Of a stretch of 64,000 nt of DNA, positions 1,410-14,219 are shown piece after piece. This stretch comes from Luteimonas sp. YGD11-2 (GTDB taxonomy: Bacteria > Pseudomonadota > Gammaproteobacteria > Xanthomonadales > Xanthomonadaceae): contig NZ_CP035376.1 in NCBI RefSeq assembly GCF_004118975.1, positions 682,001 through 746,000 on the forward strand, given 5' to 3'. The notes beneath the pieces are model-generated. The model saw nothing but the letters and a program-made list of their open reading frames with translations. It did no database searches and was not told the origin of the DNA. Position numbers and translations under genes: made by a program. Every line of letters starts with the position of its first letter. Position 1 is the stretch's first letter.

Positions 1410-2183
1410 CTAGGGGGCGAGCGTTATGCCATAACGCGCGCGGAGGGCCTCCAGCTCGCCCCGGTAAAGCAGCCCCAGCCAAGGTCGTAACGCGTTGGGC
1501 AGCCACCGCCCCTGCCACTCCCCCGCGAAGACGGTTCCGTGGGTCTGCGAGGTCCTCAACGGCGGCAGCTGCAGGAAGTCGACGACCTGCTCCACTGTCT
1601 GCTGCGGGAACTCGCGCAGATCGCGGCTACGCAGCAGCAGCACCTGGGATGGAGGGAATGCCGCGGTCAACACGTCCAACTGGGTGATATAGCGCCCCCG
1701 GGCCAGGTAACTATGGTGGCGCAGTGGCGAACCATGGCCGAAATCGTGTTCGTGTCCCTTGAGCCGCCAGCGCTCGGCCAGCAGCGCCAATGGCAACGGC
1801 AGCCATTCGTCGCCTCGACCCCGCTCCATGTAGTACTGCGAGATGGCCCGCTCCACCGGGTCGCGCAGCAGCACGATCCACCGCATGCCGGGGTTGTAGC
1901 GTGCGATCCTGCGCACGAATGCGGGGTGGAAGATGGAGATGGGGGTGGCATCGCCGTGCAGGATGCCCGAGTCGATGTCGAACCCGCCTGGAAACAATGG
2001 TTCGAAGCGCGCATCGATCGCATCCGCCGTCCATCGCTCATCGAAGTCAGGCGCGTCAAAGACGTGCGCTTCCTTGCAGGCTGGCAACCGCAATTGAGGG
2101 TGTCGTCCGAGATACTGGGCAAGCGCCGTGGTACCGCCCTTCTGCACCCCCCCGATCATGAAGCCGATCCTGGGCGCGCTCAT
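1410..2183 (-). CDS. Sulfotransferase, heparan-type (NDST-like) fold
   Basis: The 257-residue protein has both PAPS-binding signatures: a 5'-phosphosulfate loop GGVQKGGTT at residues 11-19, and a 3'-phosphate motif RDPVERAISQYY at 107-118. These are typical of sulfotransferases that move sulfate from PAPS to a sugar. The substrate is probably a sugar of the surface glycan, judging by the neighbours. The start at 2183 was chosen because ATGA overlaps the stop of the preceding gene; the open frame continues 22 codons upstream without protein-like sequence. It is the last gene of a four-gene minus-strand set (permease, glycosyltransferase, two sulfotransferases). The acceptor is unknown. Confidence 0.85.
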   Translation of the reverse strand: MSAPRIGFMIGGVQKGGTTALAQYLGRHPQLRLPACKEAHVFDAPDFDERWTADAIDARFEPLFPGGFDIDSGILHGDATPISIFHPAFVRRIARYNPGMRWIVLLRDPVERAISQYYMERGRGDEWLPLPLALLAERWRLKGHEHDFGHGSPLRHHSYLARGRYITQLDVLTAAFPPSQVLLLRSRDLREFPQQTVEQVVDFLQLPPLRTSQTHGTVFAGEWQGRWLPNALRPWLGLLYRGELEALRARYGITLAP

Positions 2184-3025
2184 GCAGGCGGCGTCTCGAG
2201 GGCAGCGGCAAGATCCGCGATCGCATTGCTGTCGTACCACCGGGTCCACGACGGGTCGGCCTGTCGCAGCAGGGCCTCAGCGAGGCGGTTGACCGGCGTG
2301 GCGCGGTAGATGGATCGCGTGTTGCGTGGCGTCAGGTCCTCCCGCGCCGCGCCGGTCAATGCCATGGCCTGGCGCAGCGACGCTCCGCCGGTCGCAACGA
2401 CGTCCTCGTAACGGAGAACACGGGTAGGCGGCAGATGCGCGCGAAACCGTGCGAAGAACCATTCCAGCACCATGACCTGGCGTGCGAGCCGCTCTGGCGT
2501 TTGATCGAGACGGAGACGCAGCGCAGCGTCGAAGTGTTCGCCCGCGGGCACCCGGCCCTGCGACACGGGCAGTTCCACGGTATTCCATGACGCCAGCACC
2601 GCCAGCGGATTGCGCACGATCGCAAAGCACTCCAGACGCGCCGCCAGGTCAGGCAGCAGCGCAGTGAACGCCGCATTGTGTTTGATGACCAGTGTGAAGC
2701 CCTGTGCCGGGCGGCCGACATGGATCGCACCATGTTCCACCACCAGGCGCCGCCGGCCGTCGGAGGCCGGTTCGTCGAACGGATTGTCGGGAACCGTTCC
2801 ATCCCGGTGTTTGCTCAGGGCCTGGCCCGACGCCAGGAGTTGATGGCGGGTGTCGGAGTAGAACTGGTCCACCTGGCCGATGGCCTTCGCGGGACTGGGG
2901 TCCAGCGCGTGGATGTCCATCGGTTCGAAAAGGGCCACCGTGTCGTCGCAGGCATCGAGCAGATGGCACGCCAGCGTGGTGCCGCCACGCGGCACACCGG
3001 TCACCGCGATATTGCGAGGGGTCAT
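2180..3025 (-). CDS. Sulfotransferase-family protein
   Basis: This 281-residue protein has a P-loop-like 5'-phosphosulfate motif PRGGTT at residues 12-17 and a second motif, VRNPLAVLASW, at 137-147 where 3'-phosphate binding is expected. It is only distantly like the adjacent sulfotransferase, so the two are probably not a recent duplication. The start at 3025 makes an ATGA overlap with the stop of the glycosyltransferase upstream, and its own stop overlaps the next start in the same way, so translation is probably coupled through the set. It probably sulfates the locus glycan. The fold is shared with some other nucleotide-binding enzymes, so the chemistry is less certain than the family. Confidence 0.75.
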   Translation of the reverse strand: MTPRNIAVTGVPRGGTTLACHLLDACDDTVALFEPMDIHALDPSPAKAIGQVDQFYSDTRHQLLASGQALSKHRDGTVPDNPFDEPASDGRRRLVVEHGAIHVGRPAQGFTLVIKHNAAFTALLPDLAARLECFAIVRNPLAVLASWNTVELPVSQGRVPAGEHFDAALRLRLDQTPERLARQVMVLEWFFARFRAHLPPTRVLRYEDVVATGGASLRQAMALTGAAREDLTPRNTRSIYRATPVNRLAEALLRQADPSWTRWYDSNAIADLAAALETPPA

Positions 3026-3960
3026 GCGTTGCTCCACAGCTCGTCCACGGCGTCGAGTACCCGATGGAAGGCCTTGCGTTCGCGCTCCAGTCCGAACGCG
3101 TTGGCGGTCTGGCGGGCGGCCTGCTCCAGTCGGGTGCGCAGATCCGGATCGGCCAGAAGCGTGCGCGCGGCTGTCGCGTAGCTTGCAGCATCATCGGCCA
3201 CCAGGGCATTGACGCCAGGCCGCAAATACGCCCGATTGCCAACGCAGTCGCCAACGACCACCGCGCATCCAAACGACATCGCCTCGAGGGCTGGCAGGTA
3301 GAAGCCTTCCGTATCGTGGGGAAGGGTGAGGACAACCTCCGCGCTTACCATGGCACCCAGGTATTCGGACCGCGGCAGCCTGCGATCGGACAGCAGCACA
3401 TCGCAGTGCGGGGACAGCAGGTCGGCGATCCGGCGGCCGAGTGAGGGTCGCTTGATCGCATCAATGAAGACCCCCGACCTGTGAGCAGGCAGAGCCACCG
3501 GAGGAAGGTTGAGGGCTGCGTCGATGACCACGACGGGCCCGCGCACGCGCCCGGTGCGCTGGATCGCATGCGCGACCGGCTCACTGACGCAGATACGGAT
3601 CGCGCGGCGGTCGAGGAACTGGAACAACGGCTCATCCGGATCCGCATGGCGCACGTGCTGGACCAGGTTGATCACCGGCTTGTCGTGGTGGTCGACCGGG
3701 TACTGCAACCAGTCCATGCCGCCGAGGAACAGCACATCGGCCGCCTCGGGGTCGAAACTCGGGCTCAGGGCGTCAGGATCATCCCGCCATGGGTTGTCGT
3801 CCCAGCTGCTGGCGGGGTCCATGTGGACCTGGGCCCACCAGCCGGGGTGGCTGCGGACGTGATTGAAGTAATCGTGCACCTTGCCATGACCCCCGGTATA
3901 CCCGCCGAAGAATCGATGGAAGAGGACCCGTTGGGGCCGTGGCCGCGCCTCGGGATGCAT
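3022..3960 (-). CDS. Glycosyltransferase, GT4-like (GT-B fold)
   Basis: The C-terminal half of this 312-residue protein has the GT4 nucleotide-sugar signature: EGFYLPALEAMSFG at 218-231, followed by CAVVVGDCVGNRAYL, where the first glutamate is the usual donor-phosphate/ribose contact. The N-terminal half is less conserved, with an early glycine-rich loop (GGYTGGHGK, 19-27). The start at 3960 has a GGGCGAG ribosome site just upstream and lies 11 bases after the permease stop; longer starts would overlap the permease deeply. It presumably adds a sugar to a lipid-linked glycan in the cytoplasm. Donor and linkage cannot be read from the sequence. Confidence 0.75.
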   Translation of the reverse strand: MHPEARPRPQRVLFHRFFGGYTGGHGKVHDYFNHVRSHPGWWAQVHMDPASSWDDNPWRDDPDALSPSFDPEAADVLFLGGMDWLQYPVDHHDKPVINLVQHVRHADPDEPLFQFLDRRAIRICVSEPVAHAIQRTGRVRGPVVVIDAALNLPPVALPAHRSGVFIDAIKRPSLGRRIADLLSPHCDVLLSDRRLPRSEYLGAMVSAEVVLTLPHDTEGFYLPALEAMSFGCAVVVGDCVGNRAYLRPGVNALVADDAASYATAARTLLADPDLRTRLEQAARQTANAFGLERERKAFHRVLDAVDELWSNA

Positions 3961-3971
3961 CTCGCCCAGCG

Positions 3972-4766
3972 TCAGAGCACGTCGGCGAAGCCCCGCCGGA
4001 GCCGGTCGAAGCACAGCCGTCCGAGGCCCAGCAGCAACAGCGCCACCAGCCAGTAGGTGACGTAATCCCGGGTCGGTACGGGCCATTCGCCGCGCAGGAC
4101 CGCATCCCGAATCGCCTGCACGGGCCAGCTGATGGGATTGAGGTCAACGACATGGGCCAATACCGGCGGCACCATTTCCCGCGGGAAAAACACGGTGGAC
4201 GTGAACAGCGCAATCGTGACCACGGCGCCGGTGATCTGCGAAAGATCCCGCAGGTAGACCCCCAATGCCGCGAGGCAGAGACAGATGCCGTGCAGCATGA
4301 CGAGGTAGGGCGCGAGGATGAAAGGTACCGCCAGCACGCTGGGATGCAGGCCGTTGCCCCAGATGGCATTGACGGCCACCAGGATCCCCAACCCGATGCC
4401 TGCGTGGAATGCCGCGCTTCCCAACGGCACGGCCACCAGGACCGGAAGGGGAAAGACGACCTTCCGGACGAAATTGCTGTGACGGATGAAGAGCCCGGCC
4501 GCCTGGCCCACCGACTCCGCCAACATCGCGTGGACGAGCAGGCCGGCGAACAGGTTGAGGGTGAACCCCAGATGGTCGTCTTCAGCGAGGCCGGGCCATC
4601 GCGCACGGAACACGACGCCGAACACGAACGCGTAGATCGTCAGCATCACGATGGGCAGCAGAACCGGCCACGCCCTTCCGAGCAATGAGCCGCGATATCG
4701 TGTCGCCAGGTCCTGGCCGACCAGTGTCCGCCAGAGGTGAAAAGACGCGTTCAGCGATGCGCTCAT
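3972..4766 (-). CDS. wzm: ABC-2 type polysaccharide exporter permease (Wzm-like)
   Basis: The 264-residue integral membrane protein has about six hydrophobic spans and an N-terminal cytoplasmic motif LATRYRGSLLGRAW, typical of the ABC-2 permeases that export O-antigen, teichoic acid and capsule. It should dimerise and pair with an ATPase; the matching Wzt-type ATPase starts 96 bases away on the opposite strand. Permease and ATPase genes of this class normally sit side by side in one operon, so the head-to-head arrangement is unusual. The start at 4766 (MSASLNASF) was chosen over a much longer open frame because that extension overlaps the ATPase gene and has no permease-like sequence. Confidence 0.88.
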   Translation of the reverse strand: MSASLNASFHLWRTLVGQDLATRYRGSLLGRAWPVLLPIVMLTIYAFVFGVVFRARWPGLAEDDHLGFTLNLFAGLLVHAMLAESVGQAAGLFIRHSNFVRKVVFPLPVLVAVPLGSAAFHAGIGLGILVAVNAIWGNGLHPSVLAVPFILAPYLVMLHGICLCLAALGVYLRDLSQITGAVVTIALFTSTVFFPREMVPPVLAHVVDLNPISWPVQAIRDAVLRGEWPVPTRDYVTYWLVALLLLGLGRLCFDRLRRGFADVL

Positions 4767-4862
4767 GCTATCCAGTGCCGACGGCGGGAATCGCGCCGTC
4801 GACCGGCGCGCGCCCTCACGCAATGGCGTAGCATAGGCGGCTTTCGTCGTTGCGGCAATGAA
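4767..4862. promoter_or_regulatory. Divergent promoter region between permease and ATPase genes
   Basis: Only 96 bases separate the two exporter starts, so both promoters must lie here or inside the coding ends. No clear -35/-10 pair stands out. A shared regulatory region could keep the two exporter halves in step although they lie on opposite strands. Confidence 0.5.
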
Positions 4863-6170
4863 ATGAACCCCACGCTCGCTCAAGAGGAACTTCCGTCCCG
4901 ACCAGAGCCTGCGATCGCTTCCGATACCGCCTTGCTGGTACGCGAGGTCAGCAAGACGTATCACCTGTGGAGCACGCCGGCGAGCCGCCTGTGGGTGCCG
5001 TTGCTGCTGAGGGTCGCGCACTCCATACCGTCGCGGCCATTGTCCAACTGGTTTGCGAGCCGCGCGCATGCGCGACTGCATCGCCACGAGGCGCTGCATT
5101 CGATCAGTTTCACGCTCAAGCGCGGCGAAGCGCTGGGAATCATCGGACATAACGGCAGCGGCAAAAGCACGCTGTTGCAGATCATCGCCGGCGTACTGCA
5201 ACCCACTCGCGGGACCGTATCGGTGAACGGTCGGGTGGCTGCGCTGCTGGAGCTCGGGTCCGGTTTCAATCCGGAACTTACCGGCCGCGAAAACGTGCGG
5301 GTCAACGCCGCCATCCTTGGTCTCGATCCCGCGCAGATCCGCGAGCGGATGGATGACATCCTCGCGTTTGCAGACATCGGTAGTTTCGTCGACGAACCCG
5401 TCAAGTCATACAGTTCGGGCATGGCTTTGCGGCTCGCATTCGCCGTCCAGGTCCATACCGATCCCGATATCCTCATCGTCGACGAGGCACTTGCCGTTGG
5501 CGACGCGGCTTTCCAGGCCAAAGCCATGGCACGGATCGACGAGATCCTGTCGGGTGGTACGACGCTTCTTTTCGTGGGGCATGACCTCAATGCCGTCAAG
5601 GCGTTCTGCCATCGCGCGATGCTTCTGGAGCGCGGTCGCATCATCCTGGAGGGATTGCCCGAGGAGGTTGTGACGGAGTACCTGCACCGCACGCATGCAG
5701 ATGCGCTTGCGAAGCAGGATGCTGGACGCGCAAAGGTGTCCGCGCTGCAGGGTGGGTATGGCCTTGGTACCGCCTGCGTCGTTGGTGCCGAGGTGAATGG
5801 CACCGAGCATATCGGTGTCCAGTATGGCGAGGCGATCCGGGTGGGTCTCCGGGTGCAGCTTGGCCAGGACATCCGCCATCCCGGGGTGATCGTAGACATT
5901 CTCGACAACCGGGGCTTGCAGCTGTCTGGCAAACGCATCCGGCTCGACCCGTATGACGGCATCGTCGAAGTCGGCCTCGAGTTCGCGGCCACCTTTCAGC
6001 AGGGCGTCTACCGGATCAGGACGCGCGTGATCGACGCGCCTTCGATCGAGCGGACCACGGTGCTTTCCAGGCAGGAGGGAATGCTCTCTTTCGAAGTCGT
6101 GGATGATCGGAGGGCGGACTTCACAGGCGTATTCCCGCTGCAGATGGACATCAGTGTGCGTCAGCTCTGA
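4863..6170 (+). CDS. wzt: Polysaccharide exporter ATPase with C-terminal substrate-recognition domain (Wzt-like)
   Basis: The first 280 or so residues of the 435-residue product are an ABC ATPase: Walker A GHNGSGKST (95-103), signature YSSGM (183-187), Walker B ILIVDEA (203-209) and the H-loop histidine at 240. About 150 more residues form a beta-rich C-terminal domain like the Wzt_C domain. In E. coli O8/O9a that domain binds the capped non-reducing end of the polymer and decides export. Its presence suggests the glycan carries a terminal modification that must be recognised. The start at 4863 was chosen because the in-frame upstream extension overlaps the permease gene. The sulfotransferase/coiled-coil gene follows after 35 bases. 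Confidence 0.9.
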   Translation: MNPTLAQEELPSRPEPAIASDTALLVREVSKTYHLWSTPASRLWVPLLLRVAHSIPSRPLSNWFASRAHARLHRHEALHSISFTLKRGEALGIIGHNGSGKSTLLQIIAGVLQPTRGTVSVNGRVAALLELGSGFNPELTGRENVRVNAAILGLDPAQIRERMDDILAFADIGSFVDEPVKSYSSGMALRLAFAVQVHTDPDILIVDEALAVGDAAFQAKAMARIDEILSGGTTLLFVGHDLNAVKAFCHRAMLLERGRIILEGLPEEVVTEYLHRTHADALAKQDAGRAKVSALQGGYGLGTACVVGAEVNGTEHIGVQYGEAIRVGLRVQLGQDIRHPGVIVDILDNRGLQLSGKRIRLDPYDGIVEVGLEFAATFQQGVYRIRTRVIDAPSIERTTVLSRQEGMLSFEVVDDRRADFTGVFPLQMDISVRQL

Positions 6171-8008: not shown

Positions 8009-8164
8009 GCCATCGTTCGCCCCGAACACCTCCCTGTACAACTCGCGGCGACGTAGACCGACGTCGCCATGCATTTGAATCCCACCACCTTGACCGGGTG
8101 GTGCTCACGTCACACGGTCTCCGTCATTACCTGTCCGCCGAAGACTCATACCAGCCGAGGCTCT

Positions 8165-10432
8165 ATGAAATTGCATTCTTCCTTGCTTCCACTTCATCAG
8201 GTGGAGCGCGTCACAACGGCGGGACAGGAGGCCTTCTGGCGGGCATCAGGAAACGACCCTGCGTTGGACGTTCCGTTGCCGGCCGGTGGCATGGATGGCG
8301 GCTGGTACCGTCTTGACCTCGAGATCGAGGTGCTCAGGGGTACTGTACATGCGCCGGTCCTGTACCCGGACTACCGACGCGGCTTCGTGACGGAAGACGA
8401 CGCGCTGGCGCTTCCGCTGGGCAATGCCCGCAAAGGAATCCATCGTGTCCAATGGCTTGTGCGCTTCGTGGACACGCTGTCCGCGCTGCGATTCGATCCT
8501 TCTACGCTGCCTTCCGAGTTCCGGGTCACTGATTTCTCCCTTCGACGCCTCGGGAAGGTGGGTGCGGCAGCTTGCATGTTGCGTGCGCTATGGGGCACCC
8601 GAACGAGCGCCGGGCGCCTGCAGCTCATCACCGCGAGCGGGGCCGATCTGATGGCCGGTGGACCACGGCGGATGGCAGACAAGCTCTATCGTCTGTATTC
8701 GTCGCAGGGCTCGGTCGGCGGCTTTTCCGACTACGACGTCTGGCTCGAGTTCTACGACGATGTATCTGCCGATGGAATTGCGCTGACACTTGAGACGATG
8801 CCGCAGCTCTCGTCTTCGCCGGTCTTCTCTATCCTGGTGCCGACCTACAACACCGACCCGCGGTGGCTGAAAGCGTGTATTGACAGCGTGCTGGCGCAGA
8901 CCTACCCGCACTGGGAGTTGTGTATCGCGGACGACGCGTCGACATCTCCTCATGTGTGGGAAATCGTCCAGTCGTACGTCGCGGCCGACGAGCGCATCAA
9001 GGCGGTAAGGCGCTCGCACAACGGGCACATCGCGGCTGCTTCGAACAGCGCGTTGGCCTTGGCTTCCGGGAAATATGTTGCGCTGCTCGACCACGACGAC
9101 GCATTGCATCCGTTAGCACTGCAGTGGTGCGCGCTCGAGCTCGAAAAGAATTCACGCTGGCGGATGCTGTTTACCGATGAGGACAAGATTGATTCGGCAG
9201 GCAAGCGCAGCGACCCGTACTTCAAGTCGGACTGGAACCCGGACCTGTTCCTGTCACAGAATTGCGTCTGTCATTTGGGGGTGTACGAACGCGACCTCAT
9301 GTTGGAGGTGGGTGGGTTCCGCGAAGGTTACGACGGCGCACAGGACTGGGATCTGACGCTGCGAGTTACCGAAAAACTCGGTGCGGATGAGATCGGGCAT
9401 ATCCCGAAGGTGCTCTACCACTGGCGCATGATCGAAGGCTCGACCGCGCTGGCTCCCGGTGAGAAGAGCTACGCCCACCTTGCGGCTATGCGCGCAATCC
9501 AGGATCACTTCGACCGTACCGGCACACCTGCGCAGGTGGTGGAGATGCCCGGATTCAGCGGCTACTACCGGATCAGTCATGCGATTCCGGAGCCCGCTCC
9601 GAAGGTGAGCCTGCTGATCCCCACGCGTGACCGGGTCGATCTCCTGCGGCAGTGCGTGGATTCCATCCTGAAGTTGACGACATATCGGAATTACGAGATC
9701 GTAATTCTGGACAACGGTTCTGTCGAAACCGAAACGCTCAAGTATTTCGATTCACTTGCAACGATGTCGAACGTGCGGGTGTTGCCGTACGACGCGCCAT
9801 TCAACTATTCGAAGATCAATAATTTCGGTGTCGCACAGACCAGCGGTGAATTGATCGGTCTGCTCAACAACGATATCGAGGTGATCAGCACGGACTGGTT
9901 GACGGAGATGGTGTCGCACGCGATTCGCCCCGCAATCGGTGTGGTCGGCGCCATGTTGTATTACCCAAATGACACGATCCAGCACGCTGGAGTCGTCCTG
10001 GGAATCGGCGGTGTGGCCGGGCATTCCTATGTGGGGATGCCACGCGATTATCCGGGCGACAAGCATCGGGCAGGACTTGTGCAGAACCTCAGCGCCGTTA
10101 CTGCGGCTTGCGTCGTGTTACGCAGGGACGTGTTTGAGCAGGTCGGCGGCCTCGACGAGGATCTCGTCGTTGCATTCAACGATGTCGATTTCTGCATCCG
10201 CGTCAGGGAGGCGGGCTATCGCAACCTTTGGACACCCTTCGCGGAACTCTATCACCACGAATCCGCATCGCGCGGCTATGAGGATACGCCAGAGAAGATC
10301 GCCCGTTTCAAGCGGGAAGAGGCGCTTATGAAGGCGCGCTGGGGCCATTTGCTGAGCGCGGACCCTTATTACAACGTCAATTTCTCGCTGGTCAATGCGC
10401 CGTTCACCCTTGCCTATCCTCCACGGGGTTAA
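8165..10432 (+). CDS. Bifunctional glycosyltransferase with two GT2 domains
   Basis: The 755-residue protein has an N-terminal beta-rich region (about 1-215) followed by two GT2 (GT-A fold) catalytic domains. The first begins at FSILVPTYNTDP and has the metal-binding acidic motif LLDHDDALHP. The second begins at VSLLIPTRDRVDLL and has LLNNDIEVI plus a later NDVDFCIRVREAG acceptor segment. Two-domain GT2 proteins of this type polymerise or extend rhamnose-containing O-antigens with two linkages. The start at 8165 has GAGG four bases upstream; ATG 8069 in the same frame is possible but its extra residues are not protein-like. Its GC content is visibly lower than that of the flanking housekeeping genes, consistent with transfer. 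Confidence 0.85.
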   Translation: MKLHSSLLPLHQVERVTTAGQEAFWRASGNDPALDVPLPAGGMDGGWYRLDLEIEVLRGTVHAPVLYPDYRRGFVTEDDALALPLGNARKGIHRVQWLVRFVDTLSALRFDPSTLPSEFRVTDFSLRRLGKVGAAACMLRALWGTRTSAGRLQLITASGADLMAGGPRRMADKLYRLYSSQGSVGGFSDYDVWLEFYDDVSADGIALTLETMPQLSSSPVFSILVPTYNTDPRWLKACIDSVLAQTYPHWELCIADDASTSPHVWEIVQSYVAADERIKAVRRSHNGHIAAASNSALALASGKYVALLDHDDALHPLALQWCALELEKNSRWRMLFTDEDKIDSAGKRSDPYFKSDWNPDLFLSQNCVCHLGVYERDLMLEVGGFREGYDGAQDWDLTLRVTEKLGADEIGHIPKVLYHWRMIEGSTALAPGEKSYAHLAAMRAIQDHFDRTGTPAQVVEMPGFSGYYRISHAIPEPAPKVSLLIPTRDRVDLLRQCVDSILKLTTYRNYEIVILDNGSVETETLKYFDSLATMSNVRVLPYDAPFNYSKINNFGVAQTSGELIGLLNNDIEVISTDWLTEMVSHAIRPAIGVVGAMLYYPNDTIQHAGVVLGIGGVAGHSYVGMPRDYPGDKHRAGLVQNLSAVTAACVVLRRDVFEQVGGLDEDLVVAFNDVDFCIRVREAGYRNLWTPFAELYHHESASRGYEDTPEKIARFKREEALMKARWGHLLSADPYYNVNFSLVNAPFTLAYPPRG

Positions 10433-10440
10433 GTGATGCC

Positions 10441-10472
10441 CAGGCACAACCCGAGATGGGATGTGCCTGTTA
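10441..10472. terminator. Bidirectional terminator between convergent genes
   Basis: The arms CAGGCACA (10441-10448) and TGTGCCTG (10462-10469) form an 8-bp stem in the 37-base gap between the plus-strand glycosyltransferase and the minus-strand synthase gene. A short T-containing tail follows in the plus direction. It probably ends transcription from both sides. Confidence 0.55.
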
Positions 10473-11515
10473 TCCGGCCGAATCCCTGATACCCCCGTCC
10501 TTCAGGGCATTGGGCATGGGCACAGGTCGCCGGCGGATGACGGGGTGCATTGGGGTCCGAGGCGTGTTCGCGATGTCGTAGCTGACGAAGGCAAGCAGAA
10601 ACTGCAAGCCTGAAATGATTGCGATGGTCGCGATCATGATCGTGCCGACCGGCGTGCTGGTATCGGCAACGCTGGACTGGTACCAGTGGTATCCACCGAA
10701 GAGCACGCCGAACGTGAGTAGCAGCAGGCCTATCGCCAGTTCGATCGAAGCGACCGGCATGTCGCGGAGGAAGTAGCTGTATCCGATCCGTTTCAGTCCA
10801 TTGCGCACGTGTTTGACGGCGAACTCCCCGATCACTTTCGAAATCTTCAGGTGACTCGTCTCATCCGCGTAGTGCGCGGTCATAGGAATGTCCTTGACCG
10901 TTGCGCGGAGGGTATTGAGGCGGAACAGGATGTCGGTCTCGAAGAAGTACCGCTGGCTGATCGAGTCGAATGGCAGATAGCTTGCGACACTCGCGTGTAT
11001 CGCCGTATAGCCATTAGTGGGATCGAAAACGTCCCAGTAGCCTGATGAAGCCTTGGCCATGAACGAAAGGCCAAGGTTGCCAACCCGGCGAACTGGCGGC
11101 ATCCGACGGATCTCGCCGAGCTCCCAGAAGCGGTTGCCCTTGGTGTAATCGGCGTTGCCGCTCAGGATCGGGGCGACGAATTCAGGTAACAGCGCCGGAT
11201 CCATCTGCCCGTCGCCATCGATCTTGACGATGACGTCGCTGTCCGCGGCGATCGCTGCGGCATACCCCGTCATGACGGCGCCCCCAACGCCACGGTTCTG
11301 CGCATGCCTGATCACGTTCACGCGCGGATCCCGGCAGTGGGCCTCAATGAAATCGCCGCTCCCATCGGGACATCCGTCGTCAATACAGAAGATGCGGTTG
11401 ACCTCGGGGCCGATGCGGTCGATTACGCCCAGCACGTGGCGGGTCACCCTGTAACAGGGAATCACCACGGCGACGGAGGGGGGGGGGCGAACCCAGCTGG
11501 AGATGAATTGATCAT
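10470..11515 (-). CDS. Polyprenyl-phosphate sugar synthase (GtrB/DPM1-like GT2), frame broken by a G/C run
   Basis: Residues of the open part match GT2 polyprenyl-phosphate glycosyltransferases: VVIPCYRVT nucleotide-binding start, FCIDDGCPDGSGD, and the catalytic KIDGDGQMDP, with two hydrophobic spans near the C-terminus. Such enzymes charge undecaprenyl phosphate with one sugar on the inner face of the membrane. The natural start is ATG 11515, whose ATGA overlaps the upstream gene's stop. Nine codons later a run of ten C (plus strand G, 11478-11487) shifts the frame, and translation stops after 17 codons. Eleven or eight C would give an intact protein (348 residues with eleven). The open frame otherwise begins at GTG 11468, which cuts the first beta strand. 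It may be a phase-OFF allele or a sequencing length error. Confidence 0.75.
11478..11487. repeat. Homopolymer run of ten G (C on the coding strand)
   Basis: An uninterrupted run of ten identical bases lies inside the start of the polyprenyl-phosphate sugar synthase gene. Runs this long at the 5' end of surface-glycan genes are classic sites of slipped-strand mispairing. The present length puts the gene out of frame. Confidence 0.9.
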
Positions 11516-13767
11516 GGTGATTCCCCCTTATCTAGCATCCCGAGATGGGTGCAGGTGCGGGATCCGTCGGGAAAAACCATGGTGGTATCCACGGCACCCG
11601 ACGCTAATCCAACAACGCACAACTCGGTGTCAGCGCTCGGATCTTCGAGGAATCCTTCGACGATGAAGCCGGAGTGGGCGAGCGCCGTTGAAACGGCAGC
11701 GGCAACGTCTGGGCGAGGCACCCGTTTTACCAGCACGTCCTGCATCCCCGCATTCGACCACAGGCCGATCATGGATTGCGCGCCGGGGGGCGTTCGGGAC
11801 CAGCCAGCAAGGCGAAACCGGCCGTGCTGGTCAATGATCATGTCGTCTATGTGGCCATTGGCGAGATCGACTGCGACATCGGGTCGCTCGCTCATGAGGG
11901 CGACCTGCTCCGGCTCAGGCTTGGGCGTCAAAGCGCGCTCCATCCGGCCCGCCATGACGTCGAAGGGCACGCCCACGGAATCCGCAGCCATCAGCACCGG
12001 TTCGCTTCCTTCGATTACTGAAACGTGGGCGTACCTATTGAAGATTTCATTGAACCTTGCGGGCTCCATGTCTCCGAAGTATCCGCGGAAGAAATCGAGC
12101 TGGGGGGCATAAAGCACGTGATTGATGCTTGAAATCCCGGCGCCGGCGATCAGCGCCCCATAGTGGCCGGGCGCCACGAGCGTGCCGCGTTCGTCCAGCA
12201 CGGCTCCGCGCTCGAGCAGCGTCGAGCGCACTAGTTCCCGATCAAGGTTGAAGATGGGATGGGCGACCTGCACAGGATTGAACAGACCGAACATGGCCAG
12301 GTTCGCCCCCGCTGCTACCCAGCAAACCAGGACGGTGCGTGCGTTGGCGGAGTGCACGATTGCCATACCGCCGAGCACCACGACGACAGCTGCGAGTGGC
12401 ACCAAGTCGAGTCGGGAAAAGGTCCCGCTGATGGATCCATCGCCGAGAAGATATTTCACGGCGACAGCTCCTGCGGCCGCGCCAGCTAGAAGCAGGGCGC
12501 GAACGGTGGAGACGCGTACCCCCGCGATAGCCAGATAGGCGGCGGCGAGAATGTTCACCAGGAGCCCGAAACCGACAAGAGCGCGGGCGGGTGGTACGAG
12601 GTACAGCCCGGAGACGCGCGCAATCAGCGGGTTGACGCTCAAGAACATCCATGCCGCGAACACCCCCAGCCCGACCAGGATCGCGAAGATGCTCCAGCGG
12701 TGATCCTGCATCCAGGCGCGGAATCGGCGGTGATCCGCAAGGCACACCGCGAACAGCGGCAGAAGGGTGGATAGGACCGCGATCTCACAAGCGTTGGAAT
12801 TGGTGAAGCGTGGCAACGGCTCGTAACCATTGATCAGCGCAGTTGGGGCGAAGTGGCCGAGAAGACGCTCCAGGCCGACTCCTCCGCTGGCGGCGATGCG
12901 GCGCCCCGGATATACGGTCTGCTGCATCACATCGATCAGCTCGTGGAAGTATCCGATGAACAGCGCGAGAGCGATGCTGCCGGCAACCGTGGCGTCGAAG
13001 AGGGTCCCCACGCGGATTGCGTCACGCCTGAAGCCCAGGATGAGGAAACCGATCGCCAGGGCGATGGAATAGAGGAACGGCGGATACGCGCATGACAACA
13101 GCCAGACAAGGATGGCGTAGGCGGTCAAACCGATCCGCGCGAGACGGTTGCCTGAGTACATCCATGCGAGCGCTACCCATGGCGCAAGGGCGAACGCACC
13201 AGCGTTGGTCGTCCACCATGCCTGCACGTACTGGGAGAAGTAGAGGGCGACGGCGATTGGCACGGAGACCCAGACGGACAGTCCGAGCTTGCGTACGAAC
13301 AGCGCCCACCCCACGATGAACGCAGCTGCGAGGAAGAAGAAATAGAAGGAGTAGCCATAGGCTGGCGGCGCGACGATAAAGCCCCAGTGATAGGGCTTGA
13401 ACAACAATGCCCAGTCGCGCAAGGGTAGAGCCTGGAAGGTACGAAGACTTTCCTGGTACGGAGAGATCGAATTCGCTGTCGCGAAGTCGTTCTCCACCGC
13501 AATCTGCATGTACGGAGTCAACACCATCCATTCGTCGGAACGGATGCCGCGCGCAGAGCCGAGGATTGTCCCCGTCACCGGCTGTCCCAGCATCTCCAGT
13601 CCCGCAGCATAGGAAGACGGGCTGAGTGCAAATCCGACGTAGCACACGCATGCCAACGCGACGAGAAGGCACCAGCGCCAATCCCACCGCACGGCAGCTG
13701 AAAGATGCGACATCCGGCCAACGGGCTGTGGCAACCGCGCGAAGCTGCGCGATAATCGGTTATTCAC
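11512..13767 (-). CDS. Large polytopic membrane protein, possible GT-C type glycosyltransferase
   Basis: The product (751 residues from GTG 13767, or 733 from ATG 13713) has about 12-13 hydrophobic spans in its first two thirds and a soluble C-terminal domain of about 200 residues. After the first span comes a loop with GSARGIRSDEW; an acidic pair in the first periplasmic loop is the usual place for the catalytic residue of GT-C enzymes, which use polyprenyl-phosphate sugars. Its neighbour downstream would make such a donor and is coupled by an ATGA overlap. I infer a GtrC-like transferase acting in the periplasm, but sequence similarity to a characterised enzyme was not recognised. The start is uncertain: the longest frame, to 13875, runs into the divergent gene. 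Confidence 0.65.
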   Translation of the reverse strand: MNNRLSRSFARLPQPVGRMSHLSAAVRWDWRWCLLVALACVCYVGFALSPSSYAAGLEMLGQPVTGTILGSARGIRSDEWMVLTPYMQIAVENDFATANSISPYQESLRTFQALPLRDWALLFKPYHWGFIVAPPAYGYSFYFFFLAAAFIVGWALFVRKLGLSVWVSVPIAVALYFSQYVQAWWTTNAGAFALAPWVALAWMYSGNRLARIGLTAYAILVWLLSCAYPPFLYSIALAIGFLILGFRRDAIRVGTLFDATVAGSIALALFIGYFHELIDVMQQTVYPGRRIAASGGVGLERLLGHFAPTALINGYEPLPRFTNSNACEIAVLSTLLPLFAVCLADHRRFRAWMQDHRWSIFAILVGLGVFAAWMFLSVNPLIARVSGLYLVPPARALVGFGLLVNILAAAYLAIAGVRVSTVRALLLAGAAAGAVAVKYLLGDGSISGTFSRLDLVPLAAVVVVLGGMAIVHSANARTVLVCWVAAGANLAMFGLFNPVQVAHPIFNLDRELVRSTLLERGAVLDERGTLVAPGHYGALIAGAGISSINHVLYAPQLDFFRGYFGDMEPARFNEIFNRYAHVSVIEGSEPVLMAADSVGVPFDVMAGRMERALTPKPEPEQVALMSERPDVAVDLANGHIDDMIIDQHGRFRLAGWSRTPPGAQSMIGLWSNAGMQDVLVKRVPRPDVAAAVSTALAHSGFIVEGFLEDPSADTELCVVGLASGAVDTTMVFPDGSRTCTHLGMLDKGESP

Positions 13768-13874
13768 GGGTTGGATCTCGTTGGGTGATGGGGCGGGGAC
13801 GTCAGTCGCTTGTCCGGTGCCTGGGGGGCGGCATGAAGTCGGGAGTACGTTGCATGGCAAAAGAGGACGACACA

Positions 13875-14219
13875 ATGACGATCACTACGGTTGCGATGAT
13901 CCTCGTGACTCTGACCATGCTTGCGTGTGGACAGGTCCTTTTCAAACTTGCATCAGGGGGCATCTCGTTCACCCGCCCGGAGACGTTCCTGTCGTGGACG
14001 CTCTTGGTCGCGCTGGCCATTTATGGGCTCGCCACCGTGCTCTGGCTGGCTGTGCTCGCTCGCGTTCCCCTGTCACAAGCATTCCCGTTCTACGGACTTT
14101 CCTTCCTCCTGGTTCCGATGTTTGCCCGGCTGTTCCTAGGCGAAGCCATACCATCCAGGGTCTGGATTGGAGGCGCGGTGATAGGCATCGGAATCCTTAT
14201 TGCTTCTTGGGAGCGGTGA
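13875..14219 (+). CDS. Small four-span membrane protein, SMR/EamA (ArnE/ArnF-like)
   Basis: The 114-residue protein consists almost wholly of four hydrophobic helices, with motifs typical of the drug/metabolite transporter superfamily (GQVLFKLASGG after helix 1, PLSQAFPFYGLSFLLVP, then GEAIPSRVWIGGAVIGIGI). Relatives include the ArnE/ArnF flippase subunits that move aminoarabinose-phosphoundecaprenol to the periplasm. Together with the neighbouring synthase and membrane protein it could flip a polyprenyl-phosphate sugar, replacing GtrA in a Gtr-type system. The start at 13875 has AGAGGA upstream; ATG 13854, with GGGAG upstream, is an equally good alternative and adds seven residues. It is divergent from the membrane-protein gene. 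Confidence 0.75.
   Translation: MTITTVAMILVTLTMLACGQVLFKLASGGISFTRPETFLSWTLLVALAIYGLATVLWLAVLARVPLSQAFPFYGLSFLLVPMFARLFLGEAIPSRVWIGGAVIGIGILIASWER

Follow-up and report, generated by a model that had tools for sequence, protein, structure and literature searches.

Does a run of ten cytosines near the start of a probable surface-sugar gene in Luteimonas sp. YGD11-2 turn that gene on and off, or does the interrupted frame have a more ordinary origin? Poly-G/C contingency loci in surface-glycan genes are known from Campylobacter, Neisseria and Helicobacter, and Luteimonas is an environmental genus. We analysed a stretch of 64,000 nucleotides (the window, genome positions 682001-746000) within the chromosome of the strain, a single contig of 3,216,429 bases with a completeness of 100, and compared the locus with the rest of the genome and with its relatives.

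The run, the reading frame and the start site

The run lies on the minus strand at window positions 11478-11487 (G10 on the plus strand), and it is the longest run in the window, equalled elsewhere in the genome by a single further run of ten. Read on the minus strand, the order is ...GATAAGGGGGAATCACC-ATG-ATCAATTCATCTCCAGCTGGGTTCG-C10-TCCGTCGCC... The ATG (11515-11513) overlaps the TGA (11514-11512) of the upstream gene in an ATGA (11512-11515), and 7 nt 5' of it stands a GGGGG (11523-11527) that resembles a Shine-Dalgarno sequence and would serve as the ribosome site. The run occupies nucleotides 29-38, in codons 10-13, of the leader frame that opens at this ATG. At the recorded length the frame contains 17 codons and then a TGA (11464-11462; whole ORF 11462-11515, minus strand). 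Just after the leader, the GT2 coding frame (10470-11468, minus strand) is uninterrupted and encodes 332 aa from its first in-frame GTG (VVIPCYRV...); the frame is recognisable by the motif SVAVVIPCYRV. Thus C10 is a long mononucleotide run within a coding sequence near its 5' end, and as the frames read its length decides between a full-length product and an early stop. An earlier sequence-only reading had fixed the start at 11515 by the stop-start overlap, placed ten identical bases nine codons in and a stop at codon 18, and argued that a change in length would restore the GT2 start; all of this is borne out by the letters of the locus, with an exact offset of nine codons plus one base. The database entry for the protein (P0002) starts the GT2 frame at an ATC at 11504, which reflects only how the annotation program coped.

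Two further features surround the start. At the leader stop, a GTGA (11462-11465, minus strand) joins the TGA to a GTG in the frame of the GT2 gene, a possible point of reinitiation. In addition, an inverted repeat of GGGAATCACCA, with arms at 11457-11467 and 11515-11525, could pair the ribosome site and the ATG with GT2 codons; one arm takes in the ribosome site and the beginning of the ATG, the other the codons for VVIP. The hairpin (11457-11525, minus strand) has an ordinary folding energy (z -0.72), and similar repeats occur elsewhere in the window, where we counted 25 overlapping pairs of inverted 11-mers and 20 simulations averaged 7; it was set aside as evidence.

A probable glycosylation system and the integrity of the gene

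The GT2 protein matches Pfam PF00535 (E 2.2e-19) and PDB 5mlz, a dolichol monophosphate mannose synthase (E 3.1e-11), and by sequence similarity it is a GtrB/DPMS-like polyprenyl-phosphate sugar synthase. All six of the NCBIfam equivalogs matched (AglJ, PpgS, ArnC and others) score far under their curated cut-offs. The upstream gene encodes a DUF7657 membrane protein of 733 aa (11512-13713, minus strand; PF24677, E 3.4e-60) that belongs to a protein cluster of 15 member sequences, whose 100% entry is assigned to one contig of 5,304 bases and not to the chromosome; its ORF spans 11512-13875, with the protein (P0122) beginning at 13713. The structural model of this protein (pLDDT 92.4) has a GT-C-like fold and its top fold matches are GT-C enzymes, suggesting that it is probably a periplasmic transferase. 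DUF7657 is a family without an assigned function, and the GT-C-like fold offers a lead toward naming it a GT-C family. On the opposite strand lies an EamA/SMR protein like ArnE (13875-14219, plus strand; PF00892; NCBIfam ArnE E 4.4e-13, under the cut-off of that model), which its sequence marks as probably a lipid-sugar flippase.

A donor synthase, a flippase and a GT-C-like protein adjoin one another, and we propose that the set is probably a side-chain glycosylation system. Around it are a second, two-domain GT2 glycosyltransferase (8069-10432, plus strand; PF00535, PF13641), a Wzt-like ABC-transporter ATPase for polysaccharide export (4737-6170, plus strand; PF00005, PF14524), a Wzm-like permease whose true start is later than that of its ORF (3972-5201, minus strand; PF01061), a GT4-type transferase, sulfotransferase-like proteins, and rmlB, rmlA, rmlC and rmlD. 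The gene order is conserved in Luteimonas deserti (the Wzt row of this comparison being unusable). Two adjoining sulfotransferase-like genes at 1410-3037, the second of them under the Pfam cut-off, raise the possibility that the glycan is sulfated.

GtrA-GtrB-Gtr* and related systems (PMC11127046) likewise combine a GT2-type polyprenyl-phosphate sugar synthase, a small flippase and a GT-C transferase; unlike them, the GT-C partner here is DUF7657 and the flippase is ArnE-like and encoded on the opposite strand. Salmonella gtr operons are systems of the same type and are phase-variable, although their control is epigenetic, through Dam and OxyR (PMC11868660), whereas here a homopolymer lies within the coding sequence.

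Apart from the frameshift at C10, no lesion is visible in the GT2 gene. Its closest named relative among the 80 best of 462 loci is that of L. deserti (78%; 79% in the comparison across 52 genus genomes), and against this species GT2 has a dN/dS of 0.10 over 323 codons. This value falls within the range of 0.04-0.20 given by five neighbours (DUF7657 0.20, two-domain GT2 0.12, EtfA 0.17, rmlB 0.09, EamA 0.04; the misaligned Wzm row was left out), all of these ratios being rough as dS is 0.8-2.5 and near saturation. By this measure the gene is otherwise intact and constrained, unlike a decayed gene, though a very recent loss would look alike.

Long G/C runs and the fidelity of the assembly

Runs of G or C become rarer with length. 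In 464 kb of the genome we counted 1832, 341, 50 and 12 runs of lengths 4 to 7, a fall to 0.15-0.24 per extra base. Genome-wide there are 53 runs of exactly 7, 4 of 8, 2 of 9 and 2 of 10, with none longer, giving 8 runs of at least eight. The two runs of ten or more compare with about 0.2-1 expected genome-wide, by hand arithmetic from the 53 runs of seven, which makes no firm excess, and runs of nine or more occur in every one of the 52 genus genomes. It is the position of the two runs of ten that stands out: each begins a coding sequence, within its first 60 nt, and each of these genes is envelope-related. The genome contains MutS and MutL domains, so slippage would not be aided by missing mismatch repair. 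The second C10 (genome positions 1985736-1985745) stands right behind the lipobox cysteine of a 195-aa lipoprotein, for which no Pfam family was matched; it is in frame, and a run at this site is missing in both of the two genus homologues. A C9 at genome positions 1450431-1450439 lies 18 bases 5' of the ATG of a small gene, where variation in leader length is conceivable.

Elsewhere in the genus, L. deserti has 5 runs of at least eight in 400 kb, which is denser per base than the study genome. Sampling one locus from each of 30 of the 52 genomes yielded 31 runs of nine or more, 4 of them at contig ends. Codon-usage scoring of the other 27 placed 1 in frame, 1 at a shift or boundary, and 25 in sequence that appeared non-coding on at least one side; those 25 include the C10 studied here and a run in the L. 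deserti flippase gene that is coding on inspection, so this scoring misses real cases. Poly-G positions number in the hundreds to thousands in three genus drafts (G012, G013 and G023), where they may be artefacts of reads at the ends of contigs.

The recorded length of the run depends on the assembly, and runs of ten are difficult for long reads. As an indel control, homologous ORFs from 464 kb of the study genome and 400 kb of the L. deserti draft (G009) were scanned for changes of frame. No real break was found in 160 homologous ORFs covering 55,250 aligned residues, in a comparison that cannot detect a break closer than about 25 residues to either end of a gene and that offers only one other run of ten. 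Four ORFs were flagged and then rejected as frameshifts: three reflected L. deserti ORFs extended upstream into non-gene sequence, and one reflected a pair of genes fused in L. deserti. The reverse comparison produced raw flags in 4 of 168 L. deserti ORFs. Codon usage gave a single coding frame on either side of 16 G/C runs of seven, and all 16 are open through. Another five, flagged as shifts (568641, 19101, 1420960, 2296658 and 2330601), proved to be gene boundaries. The other 32 of the 53 runs of seven, and all 8 longer runs, gave no score on both sides; for the C10 the reason is the low score of the DUF7657 gene at its 3' end. A run of eight at 1388531 sits inside an open frame of 590 codons. 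The study assembly looks good, and error grows with run length.

Relatives give a less reassuring picture of this gene. It is frameshifted in 3 of 6 single-contig genus genomes versus 0 of 9 drafts (15 genomes with the gene), the pattern expected from long-read errors. Besides the study genome, the broken copies are in two single-contig Luteimonas genomes, G015 and G007, the latter with its break in a stretch of eight G. In 100 kb of G007 the indel test flagged 6 of 46 genes, of which 2 were real breaks (a GST and a YegS-like kinase), 1 was the boundary between two CoA-transferase-type genes, 2 arose where the reference ORF had been extended upstream and 1 lacked a Pfam family; the break in GT2 was missed. 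In 100 kb of G015 it flagged 3 of 59, of which 2 were real (EtfA and GT2) and 1 was an upstream extension. The two real breaks in each genome indicate that the test can see errors, as a small positive control. Because both assemblies are broken in other conserved genes, we set aside the GT2 breaks of G007 and G015 as independent OFF states; they are probably long-read errors, and some may be biological.

Homologues and the weighing of explanations

A run of at least eight at the C10 site was present in 0 of 93 homologues (the 80 best of 462 loci plus 13 genus loci, with L. deserti counted once), scanned from 60 nt upstream to 9 nt inside the motif, or from only 22 nt upstream for locus L025. 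The longest run at the site is seven, an A run, and C or G runs reach at most six. Nothing here thus points to selection having maintained the tract over long periods, making a conserved switch less likely and leaving a lineage-specific one unaffected. The linker ahead of the motif varies in both length and sequence, from 2 to 38 residues in 119 homologous proteins (12-16 in 75 of them), so codon-sized changes should be tolerable. Luteimonas sp. S4-F44 has just one proline ahead of SVAV, from which we infer that the C10 probably grew by slippage out of a short proline stretch.

We arrive at an explanation to which we assign about an even chance: C10 would be a young, slippage-prone contingency tract, OFF in the sequenced clone, with phase variation deduced from a single sequence. 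Under this model the tract is a recent growth of this lineage within the variable linker that opens the GtrB-like glycosyltransferase, and strand slippage during replication would alter its length often enough to give mixed populations. At ten bases, ribosomes starting at the ATG would stop after 17 codons and no lipid-linked sugar donor would be made, so that the surface polysaccharide would lose one side-chain sugar. Other tract lengths would connect the ATG to the catalytic frame, and gains or losses of whole codons would then affect nothing but the proline count. Reversal would regain the side chain, and the benefit might be escape from phages or predators. In favour of this model, the flippase gene of the corresponding L. 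deserti system has an in-frame G9. The sequence-only reading had proposed such a switch, and it survives in part: the anatomy fits an ON/OFF tract and the test for assembly error is mildly favourable, but the lack of a run among homologues, which that reading had named as counting against it, was found for runs of at least eight in 93 of 93.

The pathogen analogy behind that proposal holds for the mechanism but not for the organism, which is a relative within an environmental genus. C. jejuni tracts are chiefly G9 and G10 (PMC8355987), and poly-G/C loci resemble the present one in that some ten G or C interrupt a coding sequence and one length is out of frame. The differences from the Campylobacter, Neisseria and Helicobacter loci are the environmental genus, the few long runs, the absence of the tract from 93 relatives and the single sequence on which the comparison here draws. 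Homopolymeric tracts at the 5' end were described as reversible gene inactivators by Orsi et al. 2010 (PMC2831843), and they share with C10 a position near the 5' end and a very short truncated product; the same survey reports that poly-A/T was over-represented in most genomes surveyed and poly-C/G was not, whereas our tract is poly-C in a GC-rich genome. Within the open-licence literature, we found none naming both Luteimonas and phase variation, none joining the terms phase variable, homopolymeric tract, undecaprenyl phosphate and glycosyltransferase, and, among the matches listed, no title on such a locus for Xanthomonas, Stenotrophomonas or the family. If length mixtures exist, the locus would represent a homopolymer switch of three-component glycosylation in a free-living genus, which would suggest that phage or predator pressure selects for such switches alongside host immunity.

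Three other accounts of the recorded frame compete with a contingency tract. The true run length may differ from the consensus, in which case GT2 would be ON in the strain and the OFF state an artefact, the tract itself perhaps still being slippery. We regard this as unlikely, though the difficulty of runs of ten for long reads and the company of G007 and G015, with their broken GT2 and other broken conserved genes, speak for it; the study genome itself argues the other way, given the 160 homologous ORFs free of real breaks, the 16 scored runs of seven in frame, the run of eight inside its long open frame and the other run of ten, which is in frame. Less likely again is a plain loss of function, that is, a single fixed frameshift that culture or phage may have selected and that does not switch. 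Surface-sugar genes are often lost in culture and the run is private to this lineage, yet the gene is otherwise intact and under constraint, and the genome has no G/C run longer than the one at which the break falls, a place where reversal is easy.

A shade less probable than plain loss is that GT2 is expressed despite its frame, whether through reinitiation at the GTGA, slippage on the C run during translation or transcription, or use of a rare start codon, making the locus a dimmer and not a switch. The overlap of the leader stop with an in-frame GTG and the P0002 entry, read from the ATC at 11504, are compatible with this, and transcriptional slippage can rescue broken poly-A genes in Buchnera (PMC2831843). 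The GTGA overlap together with the pairing of the inverted repeat may allow weak reinitiation in the OFF state. However, a product from either GTG would lack the residues ahead of the motif, which are present in 119 of 119 homologues (the shortest having 2), and by eye no Shine-Dalgarno-like sequence precedes the GTG or the ATC. The site also carries no conserved run in the 93 homologues, and no C-run counterpart of the poly-A rescue was found in the literature consulted.

A broader proposal extends the contingency tract to the whole three-gene system, which would gain tracts independently across genes and species, the donor-synthase gene with its C10 here and the L. deserti flippase gene with a G9; the study genome adds a second C10 in the lipoprotein. 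Here OFF would mean dimmed, as the leader ends at the GTGA within a hairpin that holds the ribosome site, and translation of the upstream GT-C gene together with tract length would set the dose. We consider this the least probable of the explanations discussed. The G9 is in frame within a glycine stretch, VGGGV, near the end of the L. deserti flippase gene (G009 contig C13, 90343-90351), and the study genome has no run at this position of its flippase gene. It is one of only two runs of at least nine in 400 kb, where about 0.02 would be expected in the 4-kb system by hand arithmetic made after the fact. It fits the idea of a system that gains tracts, and may merely reflect glycine codons. Runs of at least eight within 3 kb either side of GT2 were found in 4 of the 80 best loci (of 462), including the L. 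deserti flippase run and one inside the GT2 gene of Stenotrophomonas sp. ATCM1_4, at +182.
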